Assembly (NCBI GenBank): GCA_003550565.1
Contig: PUKQ01000063.1
Location: 1 to 35,014 of the forward strand
DNA: 35,014 bases
DNA from: Syntrophomonadaceae bacterium
GTDB taxonomy: Bacteria > Bacillota > Dethiobacteria > DTU022 > PWGO01
Reading direction: 5' to 3'
A model generated the notes under the pieces. The model saw nothing but the letters and a program-made list of their open reading frames with translations. It did no database searches and was not told the origin of the DNA. Positions 4,260 through 18,286 of this stretch are shown in pieces. Both the position numbers and the translations under genes were made by a program. Every line of letters starts with the position of its first letter. The first letter of the stretch is position 1.

Positions 4260-4288
4260 TTGACAAAAGGGCTTATAGTTTCTATAAT
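4260..4288 (+). promoter_or_regulatory. Consensus sigma-A promoter of the leuS leader/tRNA-Ala unit
   Basis: TTGACA (4260-4265) and TATAAT (4283-4288) are both perfect consensus hexamers with an ideal 17-base spacer. Transcription should begin near 4295, about 45 bases before T-box stem I. Such strength suits a stable-RNA gene. Confidence 0.9.
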
Positions 4289-4499
4289 TAACCATGTGTG
4301 AAAGGGAAAAATAATTATTATGCAAACTAATAAAATTGCCTGATGAGGGGAAATAGTAGACAGGAATGCTTTTACCAGAGAGTCGGTGGGTGCTGCAAAC
4401 CGGTATGCGGATCTGTTGAACTCGTCCCGGAAGATCGATTGTGAAAGTTTTGAGAGACCACTAGCAATCGACGCCTGTCGGCGTTAAGGGCGGCAAGAG

Positions 4500-4604
4500 G
4501 GTAAAGGAAAAACTACATGGGGCTGTGGCGCAGTGGGAGCGCGCTTCCTTGGCATGGAAGAGGCCGCGGGTTCGACTCCCGCCAGCTCCACCATTATCTT
4601 TACC
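4500..4604 (+). other. Helix that closes around the embedded tRNA
   Basis: GGTAAAG (4500-4506) is exactly complementary to CTTTACC (4598-4604), and a G-U pair at 4507/4597 extends it to eight pairs. Linkers of 11 bases on the 5' side and 3 bases on the 3' side connect it to the tRNA. The tRNA would thus sit as a side domain on a leader stem. The pairing is seen in the sequence; that it forms is inference. Confidence 0.6.
4519..4593 (+). tRNA. tRNA-Ala, anticodon GGC, inside the leuS T-box leader
   Basis: The cloverleaf is complete. The acceptor GGGGCTG (4519-4525) pairs with CAGCTCC (4583-4589) and includes the G3-U70 wobble that is the main alanine identity element. The D stem is GCGC/GCGC (4528-4531 with 4539-4542). 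The anticodon stem CTTCC/GGAAG (4544-4548 with 4556-4560) closes a TTGGCAT loop with anticodon GGC at 4551-4553. The T stem GCGGG/CCCGC (4566-4570 with 4578-4582) closes a TTCGACT loop. The discriminator A and an encoded CCA follow. No mismatch is visible in any stem, so it looks functional. It shares the strong promoter at 4260 and lies before the leuS attenuator, so it should be transcribed regardless of the leucine state. Confidence 0.96.
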
Positions 4605-4627
4605 AATAAGGGTGGTAACGCGGGTAA

Positions 4628-4658
4628 AAGCTCGTCCCTGAGGGGACGGGCTTATTTT
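4628..4658 (+). terminator. T-box attenuator terminator before leuS
   Basis: AAGCTCGTCCC (4628-4638) and GGGACGGGCTT (4643-4653) form an 11-bp stem with loop TGAG, followed by ATTTT. The upstream arm overlaps the CCCT (4636-4639) that would pair with AGGG (4609-4612) in the antiterminator. The two structures are therefore mutually exclusive, as in other T-boxes. Confidence 0.88.
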
Positions 4659-4678: not shown

Positions 4679-7180
4679 ATGCAAGATTACAGGCCTGAAA
4701 TCATTGAACCAAAGTGGCAAAAATGCTGGGCGGAAAGCGACTTTTACCATTCTGCGAAAGACGAATCACGCCCCAAGTATTACGTCCTGGAAATGTTTCC
4801 GTATCCTTCGGGGAAACTTCACATGGGCCACATGAGGGTTTATTCCATCGGAGACGTGTTGGCCCGGTTTTTAAGGATGCGAGGTTATAATGTGCTTCAT
4901 CCCATGGGATGGGATGCTTTTGGCTTGCCGGCGGAGAACGCCGCCATTGCTCACGGTGTAAACCCTGCTTCCTGGACCATGGAAAACATCAAACACATGA
5001 AAGATCAGCAGAATCAACTGGGGCTCAGTTATGATTGGAACCGGGAAATAACCACCTGTGCTCCCGACTATTACCGCTGGACCCAGTGGTTGTTTTTGCT
5101 CCTCTATGAACAGGGATTGGCGTACCGCCGTAAAGCCACTATTAATTGGTGTGCTGATTGCCAGACGGTGTTGGCTAATGAACAGGTGGAAGGAGGAGCT
5201 TGCTGGAGATGTGGGCAAGATGTGGAACCAAAAGAATTGGAACAGTGGTTTTTACGGATTACTGCTTATGCGGATCGCCTCCTGGACGACCTGGAGGATC
5301 TGCAAGATTGGCCGGAAAGGGTCAAGATTATGCAGCAGAACTGGATTGGCCGCAGTGAAGGGGCTGAAATCGTTTTTCCCTTAAAAGAATTCCCCGGAGA
5401 AGTAGTGCATACCTTTACCACGCGCCCCGACACTCTTTACGGAGTAACTTACATGGTCTTGGCTCCAGAGCATCCCCTGGTAGGCCGTTTGGTAGAAGGG
5501 ACTTCCCGGGAAGAAGAGATATTGTCATTTGTAGAAAAAACGAAGGGGAAAAGTGAGATTGAGAGGACTTCTGCGGAAACGGAAAAAATTGGCCTTTTTA
5601 CCGGGCGCCATGCCGTTAACCCCATTAATGGCGAAGAAGTCCCTATCCTGGTGGCCAATTACGTGTTAATGGCGTATGGAACAGGTGCGGTCATGGGTGT
5701 GCCTGCGCATGATGAAAGAGATTTCCAATTTGCCCGCAAGTACGAACTGCCCATACGGGTAGTTATTCAACCCGGGGAAAACGAAAGCCTGGATGATTCC
5801 CTTATGGAGGGGGCATATGAGGGCCCCGGTTACATGGTTAATTCCGGCTCTTTTGATGGGTTATATTTTGAGGAAGGTAAGAAAAGAATTACTGAATACC
5901 TGGCAGATAATCAACAAGGTAAGTTTACCACTTCATACCGTCTTCGTGACTGGCTTATTTCTCGGCAGCGTTATTGGGGGGCTCCCATTCCCATTATTTA
6001 TTGTGATCAGTGCGGCATATTGCCGGTCTCGAAGGAAGATTTGCCGGTTTTGCTTCCGGAAGATGTGGAGCTTTCCGGTGATCGGGTCCCTTCCCTTGCG
6101 GCAAATTCCTCTTTTCTTCACACCACCTGCCCCGAATGTGGTGGAAATGCCCAGCGGGAAACGGATACCATGGATACCTTCATGTGTTCTTCCTGGTATT
6201 TTTTGCGGTTTACTGACCCTCTTAATGTGAATGTTCCTTTTGACCGGGAAATTGCCAACTACTGGATGCCTGTGGATCAATATATAGGGGGCATCGAACA
6301 TGCGGTTCTGCATCTTCTTTACGCCCGTTTTTTTACCAAAGCATTATCAGATGCCGGTTTGATTGATACCGGTGAACCTTTTAAACGTTTGTTAGCCCAG
6401 GGCATGGTTTATAAGGACGGGGCCAAAATGTCTAAATCCCTGGGAAATGTGGTTACCCCCGATGAGATTATCAGGAATTACGGCGCGGATACGGGGCGCC
6501 TCTTTATTCTTTTCGGAGCTCCGCCGGAGAAAGATCTGGAGTGGAATGAACAGGGAGTGGAAGGATGTTATCGTTTTTTAAGGCGGGTGTGGCGGTTGAT
6601 TGAAGAAAACGGCTCCTTAGTCCGGGAAAATGAAGGGGAGCAAGATACTACTGCTCCCGGCAAAAATGAAAAAGAACTGCAGCGAGCAGTACATGCTGCC
6701 ATCAAAAAAGTAACTGCAGACATTGAAGAAAGGTTCAATTTTAATACGGCCATCAGTGCCATTATGGAAATGGTTAACTCAATTACAGATTATATTAAAA
6801 AAGTTAATGAGGAAGAGAGCGGGGGGCAAGTTTCGCGTCAGGCATTAAGGGAAGCCTTGGAAACCATGGTAGTTTTGCTTAGCCCCTTTGCGCCTCACCT
6901 GGGGGAAGAATGCTGGCGTAAGCTTGGCTACACGGATAGTGTGCACCTGCTACCCTGGCCGCGGTATGATGAAAAATTCCTCTGGGTGGAAGAAGTAGAA
7001 ATTGCTGTGCAGGTAAACGGAAAAGTAAGAGCCCGGATAATGGCTCCCGCTGAAATTTCCAAGGATGAGCTTTTAGAGGCTGCCCGTGCTGACGCAAAAG
7101 TGCAGGAGTATGTAGGTGGAAAGGAAATAGTTAAGGCGGTAGCTGTCCCCGGCAAGTTGGTAAACCTGGTAGTCAAGTAA
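4679..7180 (+). CDS. leuS: Leucyl-tRNA synthetase
   Basis: This class-I aminoacyl-tRNA synthetase charges tRNA-Leu. The HIGH motif appears as HMGH (residues 48-51) after the conserved [13 protein letters not shown] is at 583-587. A zinc ribbon-like CADC...CWRC follows the first catalytic half. The CP1 editing domain carries TTRPDTLYG and [15 protein letters not shown], both typical of post-transfer editing. A second CDQC...CPEC cluster lies in the later insert. The length of 833 residues is normal for bacterial LeuRS. ATG follows GGAGGGG (4664-4670) at 8 bases. Expression is governed by the leucine T-box leader directly upstream. Confidence 0.98.
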
Positions 7181-14885: not shown

Positions 14886-16793
14886 CTAAAAACTTATTAA
14901 TGTGCCTGCTTCCCGCATGCTGTAGCCGCCCAAGGACTCTACTTCCTTTTGAAAATCAGGATGGGAAATAATATTTACCAGTGCCTGCCCTGCCTCTGAG
15001 TTATAAAAGTCTGTGCTCATGAGCAGATCGTAACGCTCTTCCCTCACCGGTAAAAAGTCCAGTCCAAAAGGTTTTGCTGCAGCAAGTATACCCAGTCCTA
15101 TGCGTGCAGTCCCCGAAGCTACGGCTGCGGCAACATTCAGGTGTGTGTGTTCTTCTCTCTCGTAACCGTAAATATCGGCAGCGGAAAGCCCGGCTTCTAA
15201 AAGCAGGTGGTCAAAGAGAAGGCGGGTGCCGGCACCCCTTTGACGGTTAACAAAAGCCGGTTTTTTGCGGGCCAGATCATGTATGTCTTCTATGCCGTCG
15301 GGATTTCCCGGCGGAACTATCCATCCCTGCATGCGATGAGCCAGGGTAACTAGCAAAATATCTTTCCCCTCAAGGAAGCGCTTCACATACGTGGTGTTAT
15401 AAGTGTCTGTTTCCGGGTCGAAAAGGTGGACACCGGCCAGGTGGGCCTGTTCTTTTTCTATGGCGGCAATGCCGCCCATACTGCCTAAATGGGTGGAAGA
15501 GAGGGTATAACTTGGGTAGCGTTCTTTTAAAGTGGTAGCCAGCAGATCTATTACCGGATCATGGCTCCCTCCGGCCAGGAGGTTGTTATAAAGAGTTTTT
15601 TGCGGGCGGTAAAGTTCAATTTCTACCGTATCTCCTTGTTCGCAACCCATGGCCTCTGCCGGAATTATCATCAGCCCATCGGCTTTTACCAATGACATGG
15701 TCACCCCTGCGCCCCTGGTGAGGGGAGTGGCAGTAAATCCCTCTTTTATATGGCCCACAGCCATGCGCACATGCTCTTCCGTTCCCACTTCCGAAAGAAC
15801 ACGGCGCCCCAGGGTTGCGCTAATTCTTTCCCTATCCGGTTCGGATTCCCGGTAATAATGGTAGACAAGGGGGCGAACAAACCACTCCAGGCTCAAATAG
15901 GCTGAAACAGGGTAACCGGGTAGCCCCACTGCAGGTTTGTCGCCTATTTTGCCCAGGATGGTAGGTTTCCCGGGGCGGGTGGCTATTCCGTGGACAAAGA
16001 CTTCGCCCTTTTCCTGCGCGGCAATACATGAGTATGTGTAATCTTTGCTTCCCGCCGATGACCCCGCAATAACAATCACAGCATCCGCATCTTTTGCGGC
16101 TTTTCGAATAGATTCTTTCATTTGCTCCGGTTCATCGGGAACGATGGGATAAATCTCCGGCACTGCCCCCCATTCGTATAGGTAAGCGGCAGTCACACTG
16201 CTGTTAAAATCGGGAACCTTCCCTTTTTCCCTGGGGGCATGAGGCGGAATAACCTCGGAACCGGTGGGGATAATGGCTATCCTGGGCTTTTTCAAAACTT
16301 CTATTTCGGTGATTCCCCCTGCCAGAAGCGCGCCTATGTCGGGAGGGCGAAGGCGGCGGCGGGCAGGCAAAAGGAGTTCGCCTGCTACCACATCTTCCCC
16401 CACGGCTCGGACATGCTGCCAGGGAGTGGCCGGGTTTAATATTTCTACCTGCCCTTCTGCCGGTTGGTGAATGTCTTCTATCTTGATCACCGCATCAAAT
16501 CCATCCGGAAGGGGCTTCCCTGTGTCCACGTATTTAAAAGATTCGTCTTCATGCAAAGTTAATGGTGTTTGGTCGGAAGCACCGAAAGTTGATTCTGCTT
16601 TTACGGCGATTCCGTCCATAGCAGCGGCGTGATAAGCGGGCATAGACAGGTTGGCAAAAACGGGAAAGACGTTAACCCGGCCCAATGCTTCAGCAACTTG
16701 TACCTGCTCGGTTTGGGTGGGTATTTCTACCTCGGAAAGAAATCTATCCCGCGCTTCCTGTCTTGGTATGTTTTCCAAATAAACCTTGCCCAT
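14886..16793 (-). CDS. MoeA with C-terminal periplasmic-binding-protein-like domain
   Basis: Residues 1-400 are MoeA, the molybdopterin molybdenumtransferase. They include PAYHAAAMDGIAV, DAVIKIEDI, RPPDIGALLAGG, VIVIAGSSAGSKDYT and GLPGYPVSAYL, all recognisable MoeA signatures. Residues from about 408 to 635 (LAGGSHDPVIDLLATTL..., GSMGGIAAIEKEQAHLAGVHL, FVNRQRGAGTRLLFDHLL) match the PBP-like domain fused to MoeA in many Clostridia and archaea, related to the substrate domain of ModE/LysR-type sensors. That domain may bind molybdate, tungstate or another ligand; this is inference. It follows the single-domain MoeA by 55 bases. A GAGGAGG site lies 7 bases before the ATG. Confidence 0.92.
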   Translation of the reverse strand: MGKVYLENIPRQEARDRFLSEVEIPTQTEQVQVAEALGRVNVFPVFANLSMPAYHAAAMDGIAVKAESTFGASDQTPLTLHEDESFKYVDTGKPLPDGFDAVIKIEDIHQPAEGQVEILNPATPWQHVRAVGEDVVAGELLLPARRRLRPPDIGALLAGGITEIEVLKKPRIAIIPTGSEVIPPHAPREKGKVPDFNSSVTAAYLYEWGAVPEIYPIVPDEPEQMKESIRKAAKDADAVIVIAGSSAGSKDYTYSCIAAQEKGEVFVHGIATRPGKPTILGKIGDKPAVGLPGYPVSAYLSLEWFVRPLVYHYYRESEPDRERISATLGRRVLSEVGTEEHVRMAVGHIKEGFTATPLTRGAGVTMSLVKADGLMIIPAEAMGCEQGDTVEIELYRPQKTLYNNLLAGGSHDPVIDLLATTLKERYPSYTLSSTHLGSMGGIAAIEKEQAHLAGVHLFDPETDTYNTTYVKRFLEGKDILLVTLAHRMQGWIVPPGNPDGIEDIHDLARKKPAFVNRQRGAGTRLLFDHLLLEAGLSAADIYGYEREEHTHLNVAAAVASGTARIGLGILAAAKPFGLDFLPVREERYDLLMSTDFYNSEAGQALVNIISHPDFQKEVESLGGYSMREAGTLISF

Positions 16794-16848: not shown

Positions 16849-18084
16849 TTAATTCCAAAGGCGGACTTCCACCACCTCGCCTGTTTCCAGCCCTTCTTTT
16901 TCGGGGGCGATAACCGTAAATCCATCTGCTTCTGCCAGAGTGCGCAGCATTCCCGAACGCCCGAAAACGGGCGCGGCTGAAAATCCCTTTTCACTCTCTT
17001 GCAGTTTTACCCGCACATAGTCGGTGCGGCCGGAGCGCGAAGAAACGTTACGAGTTAGTGAAGCTTTTATAGTGGGTTGCACCTTCAAGGTTTCCCGTCC
17101 TGCCAGTTGGTGAAGGATGGCGGTTCCAAAAATGAAAAAAACGATCAGCGCCGATACGGGATGTCCGGGAAGGCCCATCACCGGTTTTCCTTCACAGTTG
17201 GCTACCAGGGTGGGTTTACCCGGTTGAATAGATATTCCTTCCACCAAAAGCCCCGGTTTGCCGAGTTCTTGGAGTGTGCGGGTGGTGAAATCGCGTGTGC
17301 CCACTGAACTGCCTCCGGAAAGAACCAAAAAATCCACCTGTGCCAGCATCTCACGGCTTTTTTGTAAAAATTCTTCATAATTATCGGGCAGGATGCCGCC
17401 GTTTATAACTTTTCCCGCGCCTTGCTGGCGGGCAAGGTGAATTAAGCCCGGGGTGTTACTGTCTCTAACCTGCCCCGGATCAAGGGAAGTGACTTCATGG
17501 GAGACGAGTTCGTCACCGGTAGAGAAAACCCCCATCACCGGTTGGCGGTAAGTTTTTACTTTTGCTGCTCCCATAGAGGCAAGGAAACTGATTTCCGCTG
17601 AGCGCAGGAGTTTTCCGGCGGAAAGGGCAGTGCTGCCGTTTTTGATGTCTTCTCCCTTCTGAATTACATTCTCACCGGGGGCTACCTGCCTGTATACGTG
17701 AATCACATTTTCCGTTACTTCCGTGTCTTCTACCATTACCACGGCATCTGCTTCCGCCGGCAGCATCCCGCCGGTGTGGACCAGAAAACACTGGCCGGAA
17801 ATAGAAGCAGCGGCAGGAGCTGCTTCTCCCATCAGAATTTCTCCGGCATATTCAAAGACAGCGGGAAAACCTTCACCTGCGCCGAAAGTTTCCCGGGCAA
17901 CAACGGCGTACCCATCCACTGTTGACCGGTTAAAGGCAGGCAGGTCTTCTTGGCAGACCACATCTTCTGCCAGGCAGCGACCACCTGCTTCTTTGATGTC
18001 AACTTCCTCTGCTTCCAGGGAAGAAAAATTCTGCCGAATAATATTAAAGACATCTTGTGGATCAGTTACTCTCATTAATTTCAC
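16849..18084 (-). CDS. moeA: Molybdopterin molybdenumtransferase MoeA
   Basis: MoeA inserts molybdate into adenylated molybdopterin. The visible signatures are LPAFNRSTVDGYAVVA near residue 50, DAVVMVEDTEV, SVGTRDFT and GLPGHPVSAL. A C-terminal barrel ends the 411-residue protein, which is the normal length. The GTG start at 18084 follows GGAGGT (18093-18098) by 8 bases, better placed than the ATG at 18075. It is the first gene of the operon, directly behind the riboswitch and its terminator. Two different MoeA copies in one operon may handle molybdenum and tungsten or two cofactor forms; the sequence does not show which. Confidence 0.95.
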   Translation of the reverse strand: MKLMRVTDPQDVFNIIRQNFSSLEAEEVDIKEAGGRCLAEDVVCQEDLPAFNRSTVDGYAVVARETFGAGEGFPAVFEYAGEILMGEAAPAAASISGQCFLVHTGGMLPAEADAVVMVEDTEVTENVIHVYRQVAPGENVIQKGEDIKNGSTALSAGKLLRSAEISFLASMGAAKVKTYRQPVMGVFSTGDELVSHEVTSLDPGQVRDSNTPGLIHLARQQGAGKVINGGILPDNYEEFLQKSREMLAQVDFLVLSGGSSVGTRDFTTRTLQELGKPGLLVEGISIQPGKPTLVANCEGKPVMGLPGHPVSALIVFFIFGTAILHQLAGRETLKVQPTIKASLTRNVSSRSGRTDYVRVKLQESEKGFSAAPVFGRSGMLRTLAEADGFTVIAPEKEGLETGEVVEVRLWN

Positions 18085-18137: not shown

Positions 18138-18163
18138 CTTTTAATGTGCAAAATAGCCGGCAA

Positions 18164-18260
18164 GTCTCCTTTCCAAGCACGGGAGGCGGGAGGATTTCTC
18201 CTCCAACCCTGACCTTCCGCCGTAGTTCCCTCGTGAACTGTAGGCGTAAAGGCTCGGAGC
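18164..18260 (-). promoter_or_regulatory. Molybdenum/tungsten cofactor (Moco) riboswitch
   Basis: Read on the minus strand, the leader shows the conserved blocks of the Moco RNA motif: CTCCGAGCC at its start, then GCCTAC, GGGAACTACGGC, a GGAGGA-GAAA-TCCTCC hairpin with a GNRA-type loop, CGCCTCCCGTG and finally AAAGGAG, which closes the outer helix with the opening CTCC. The motif usually sits before Moco genes, as here. A terminator follows, so bound cofactor should reduce expression of the operon. I cannot decide between the Moco and the proposed tungsten-cofactor variant without a structure alignment. Confidence 0.92.
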
Positions 18261-18286
18261 TACCTTTTTATTTTATTATCCCCTTC

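Follow-up and report, generated by a model that had tools for sequence, protein, structure and literature searches.

A tRNA-Ala(GGC) gene nested within the leucine T-box leader of leuS in two bacterial phyla

Some bacterial tRNA genes are co-transcribed with mRNAs and freed from them by RNase P, and some T-box leaders are elaborated into tandem or two-codon forms whose further tRNA ligands act in trans. The leuS leader described here, from a Syntrophomonadaceae bacterium, resembles the former in that its tRNA would derive from a precursor that also holds an mRNA, and the latter in being an elaborated leader with more than one tRNA. It differs from the co-transcribed precursors in that the tRNA is nested in a regulatory structure upstream of the attenuator that decides on the mRNA, and from the tandem and two-codon T-boxes in that the gene for the second tRNA is part of the leader. 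With the transcriptional T-boxes of leucine leuS leaders (Rfam RF00230) it shares the AGAGAG of stem I, the CUC specifier, the succession of RRRNG, stem III and AA, the UGGN bulge, the terminator and a synthetase gene downstream, but its stem III hairpin loop consists of a whole tRNA gene, one whose specificity differs. The Zhang review (PMC7583486) notes T-boxes that carry domain insertions, of unexplained structure and function, in stem III or in helix A2; the leader is like them in having its insertion within the discriminator domain, stem III included, and unlike them in that the insert looks like a functional gene, one for a different RNA, and that the nested T-boxes belong to the transcriptional class and have a long stem I. 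The earlier sequence-only reading of this DNA was aware of no T-box on record whose sensor holds a tRNA gene of another specificity, in agreement with the open literature searched, a scope outside which the main T-box surveys (Vitreschak 2008; Gutierrez-Preciado 2009) fall, and which yielded no published description of a tRNA nested in a T-box. Searched by keyword, Wels 2008 (PMC2494555), TBDB (PMC7778990) and the Zhang review (PMC7583486) make no mention of a tRNA in stem III.

The leader lies on the forward strand of the window, the whole 35,014-nucleotide stretch of DNA that was analysed, and all of its features share that strand. It is preceded by a sigma-70-type promoter with 12/12 consensus letters (TTGACA, 17 nt, TATAAT; 4260–4288), as the sequence-only reading had proposed, and it matches the T-box model RF00230 over its full length (4334–4642; cmscan, 119.1 bits against a gathering score of 93, with model positions 1–219 covered). 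Sequence and covariance-model alignment place the specifier codon CUC (Leu) at 4421–4423, which fits the leuS product, and a tRNA-Leu(GAG) is present in the same genome (loci L281 and L282). The antiterminator T-box sequence GGGTGGTAACGCG (4610–4622, identified in the same two ways) includes a UGGU bulge at 4613–4616 complementary to the discriminator and CCA of the ligand, the last letter of UGGU having as its partner A73 of tRNA-Leu. An intrinsic terminator with an 11-bp stem and a T tail (called at 4628–4653, annotated as 4628–4658) forms the attenuator, and leuS itself (4679–7180) encodes a leucine--tRNA ligase of 833 aa (TIGR00396, 1101 bits, cut-off 548). The leucine T-box is thus intact in all the parts that had been claimed for it.

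ARAGORN and Rfam agree on a full tRNA-Ala(GGC) gene inside this leader, again as first described. ARAGORN places it at 4519–4593 as the sole tRNA called in the window, and Rfam cmscan finds RF00005 at 4519–4590 with 68.9 bits; cloverleaf, GGC anticodon, G3:U70, A73 and an encoded CCA are all present. It had been placed between stem I and the antiterminator, where it does lie, but both the covariance-model alignment and folding show that it is not a loose spacer there: it forms the terminal loop of stem III. The order along the leader is AAGAG (4495–4499), the stem III 5' strand GGTAAAG (4500–4506), 12 nt, the tRNA, 4 nt, the stem III 3' strand CTTTACC (4598–4604), AA (4605–4606) and the T-box, so that stem III is flanked by both of its conserved motifs, AAGAG corresponding to the RRRNG described 5' of stem III in TBDB (PMC7778990). 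The alignment assigns 83 extra nucleotides to the stem III loop, and thermodynamic folding recovers the same stem III around the tRNA. The fold of the isolated 139-nt stretch is no better than that of shuffles (z 0.15) and shows no cloverleaf; failure to fold into a cloverleaf is common for unmodified tRNA sequences. The other eight T-boxes of this genome hold no tRNA. Elsewhere in the window, a molybdenum/tungsten cofactor riboswitch (RF01055, 58 bits, 18150–18271, reverse strand) lies upstream of a moeA-like gene (16849–18084), beyond which is a second moeA-type gene (14886–16793).

Other genomes were searched for a tRNA T-arm followed after 12–42 nt by a T-box, and the matches were checked with ARAGORN and for leuS. 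Chance co-occurrence is ruled out, as a tRNA 3' half at this distance from a T-box was never met in shuffles of the window, giving zero chance matches expected in it. In the window's phylum the pattern matched 70 of 399 genomes, 66 of which are true after the checks (one of them, G249, judged from the matched sequence only), and the nested tRNA is tRNA-Ala(GGC) in every one. The strict pattern finds the nested form in 22 families among these 399 genomes, and at least two further families (f33 and f67) carry it by eye, with variant T-box letters or longer spacing; because this relaxed reading adds families, the counts are a lower bound. A second sample consisted of 301 genomes from the phylum of a Thermomicrobiaceae MAG, Chloroflexota in GTDB, and here the nested form is true in 21, including large Ktedonobacteria-like genomes. 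Among the carriers with species names are Thermosyntropha lipolytica DSM 11003 and Desulfofundulus thermosubterraneus DSM 16057. The sequence-only reading had named absence from all close relatives and misassembly as grounds for refutation, and neither holds: the total comes to 111 non-redundant nested loci in two phyla, closed genomes included. A chimera of a tRNA locus and a T-box locus might be suspected in the window's own genome, since its assembly is a draft (279 contigs, 6.4% contamination), but the arrangement recurs in many independent genomes. In five of these (G053, G137, G308, G047 and G093) the locus sits on one contig of 2.4–3.1 Mb, which argues against an assembly artefact, and several copies are in closed genomes; we consider the probability of a chimera to be negligible.

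The leuS gene is close downstream in 101/111 nested loci. Desulfofundulus-like and related lineages (L098, L215, L217, L218, L219, L220 and L296) have an ORF resembling an acyl-CoA synthetase, by eye, between the T-box–tRNA unit and leuS, and leuS is seen beyond it in L098 and L296. In genome G107 (L257 and L288) the two are separated by ~2.8 kb that is possibly a group II intron, also by eye. Several Ktedonobacteria-like genomes (L301, L305, L307–L312 and L320) have a tRNA-Ala(CGC) gene on the same strand roughly 300–700 bases upstream of the nested tRNA-Ala(GGC), and the leader in these genomes may therefore belong to a longer alanine tRNA unit. Among all pattern hits, other tRNAs appear only twice: L041, from Mycobacterium, has a tRNA-Leu and L251 a tRNA-His, both without leuS and judged to be chance matches.

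Stem III is retained around the tRNA throughout, and its loop is the insertion site in all nested loci. A MAFFT alignment places the tRNA and antiterminator well but shifts the 5' strands of stem III relative to one another, and covariation was therefore counted with an anchored script in which the RRRNG and AA motifs, rather than pairing, fix the register of the stem. By this measure 74% of stem III cells are paired, compared with 59% (sd 1.5%, maximum 65%) in 1000 partner shuffles and 42–53% in slid registers, and several positions show G-C, A-T, T-A and C-G types, as expected of compensatory changes; swapping partners with close relatives left in gives only a modest pairing signal. The median stem length is 7 bp in nested loci versus 6 bp in ordinary T-boxes. 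The pairing and ordinary length together indicate that the tRNA takes the place of the hairpin loop without disturbing the discriminator.

The nested tRNA has the hallmarks of a gene in use. The GGC anticodon, G3:U70, A73 and seven acceptor pairs are present in 111/111 loci, and a full CCA is encoded in 94 of them, the other 17 being without. Exactly one tRNA-Ala(GGC) is found per genome in 63/66 carriers of the window's phylum, and it is likewise single copy in 12/12 further carriers, including those of the second phylum. Where the T-box has been lost, the tRNA is kept just upstream of leuS (L173, L175, L179, L260, L268 and others), usually followed by what is apparently the old T-box terminator, and it is still the sole copy in 8/8 such genomes checked. 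Its retention after T-box loss implies selection on the tRNA independent of the T-box. That the tRNA is a pseudogene or neutral insert, neither processed nor used, is therefore extremely unlikely: its identity elements are conserved without exception, it is usually the genome's only tRNA-Ala(GGC), and it outlasts the T-box around it. Judged from its sequence, the tRNA-Ala(GGC) is a working-looking gene and not a pseudogene. Two truncated tRNA-Ala remnants were also seen, one in L118 (near 1457–1518) with a T-box still behind it and one upstream of leuS in L181 with only a relict terminator behind it; these are possible stages of decay, or MAG errors. Upstream of leuS in L269 is a T-box that lacks a tRNA and whose structured stem III loop is unusually long; this loop may represent a different insertion or what is left of a tRNA.

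The T-box likewise appears to be a working-looking switch in the nested loci. The specifier is CUC in 108/111, which rules out a T-box sensing alanine; the UGGN bulge reads UGGU in 107/111, the T-box sequence hardly varies, and in 104/111 it is followed by a terminator-like T-run. The Rfam gathering score is reached by 8/20 diverse nested loci, with the remaining ones below it. A different role for the insert would be as a ligand in cis, the 3' ACCA of the nested tRNA-Ala pairing with the UGGU bulge and holding the antiterminator until processing. An encoded ACCA is indeed near the bulge in 94/111 loci, the tRNA ends 9–29 nt from the T-box in 110/111, and UGGU suits the A73-CCA of Leu and Ala tRNAs alike, but the full encoded CCA is missing in 17/111, and the conserved CUC specifier and stem I would be pointless if a tRNA in cis set the switch. 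We consider cis-pairing very unlikely.

In a LeuS tree of 144 rows, the nested form occurs in Bacillota and Chloroflexota-type clades, interspersed with loci that have only the T-box, only the tRNA or a bare leuS, and by our reading there have been at least five separate T-box losses in which the tRNA was kept. That tRNA identity, T-box specificity and site of insertion are invariant points to a single origin of the arrangement, followed by losses of either part. Its presence in two phyla could reflect either descent or transfer of the locus. By all appearances this is an old, inherited nested gene and not an artefact.

We think it likely that these loci are two-product leaders, in which a constitutive tRNA-Ala(GGC) is made from inside a leucine-controlled attenuator of leuS. 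In the window, the leuS promoter at 4260–4288 would make one transcript, whose sensor arm (stem I with its CUC specifier) would read tRNA-Leu(GAG), and the choice between antiterminator and terminator would set whether RNA polymerase proceeds into leuS in a leucine-dependent manner. The tRNA-Ala(GGC) would fold independently while filling the stem III hairpin loop. With its place ahead of the attenuator, the tRNA should be present in terminated and read-through RNAs alike, in keeping with the earlier expectation of a tRNA in every transcript, and would be freed from both kinds by RNase P and 3' nucleases; the T-box terminator would serve also as the terminator of the tRNA gene. The tRNA may also have a promoter of its own within the leader. 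The geometry of the discriminator would be preserved because stem III keeps its ordinary length and pairing around the tRNA, and the arrangement would have become fixed because most of these genomes have no other tRNA-Ala(GGC).

The sequence-only reading further held that cleavage at the tRNA would separate stem I from the antiterminator. This overlooks stem III, which brackets the tRNA and could keep the halves together. In most species stem III would thereby keep the two leader halves paired after excision; it is weak (3–4 bp) in 8/111 loci, so that such holding together cannot be universal. Taken to its conclusion, the riboswitch would survive the excision of its own middle, with the tRNA cut from the stem III loop and stem III joining sensor and expression platform as a two-piece switch, so that a single RNA would supply the tRNA of one amino acid while sensing whether that of another is charged. 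This we put forward tentatively, as a possibility that we doubt more than we favor.

A more intimate relation would be one in which excision of tRNA-Ala by RNase P, or its failure, shifts the leuS decision, so that leuS expression would respond to the capacity for tRNA maturation or to demand for alanine tRNA. The pairing of one tRNA with one T-box is invariant over two phyla, as is insertion in the stem III loop, and in 61/111 loci the leader before the tRNA ends in GU or GG, which could put cleavage off until after the decision; GU and GG leader ends pair with RCCA in E. coli RNase P substrates and slow cleavage (PMC9433436). However, other tRNAs of the window's genome often have GU in front of them too (8/39), the window's own leader ends in the fast AU, and no sequence feature ties alanine to the switch. 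The enrichment of GU and GG, which is not universal, thus seems a mere hint of slow RNase P cleavage. T-box and tRNA have moreover been lost independently several times, which makes any coupling, including that of tRNA supply to synthetase control put forward in the sequence-only reading, at most optional rather than obligatory; because both parts are separable in evolution, active coupling between tRNA processing and leuS is possible but need not be assumed. Active coupling is accordingly unlikely in our view, and the two-product leader remains our preferred reading.

A tRNA gene kept within a tRNA-sensing riboswitch in two phyla would amount to gene nesting of a new kind, with two functional RNAs per transcript. 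It raises directly the question of whether a riboswitch still functions after RNase P cuts out its center, and of whether maturation of the tRNA and the choice at the switch compete. The nested tRNA offers a plausible role for one of the unexplained T-box stem III insertions and shows how far the stem III hairpin loop can extend, and annotation pipelines that list the tRNA and the T-box apart miss that they are one molecule.
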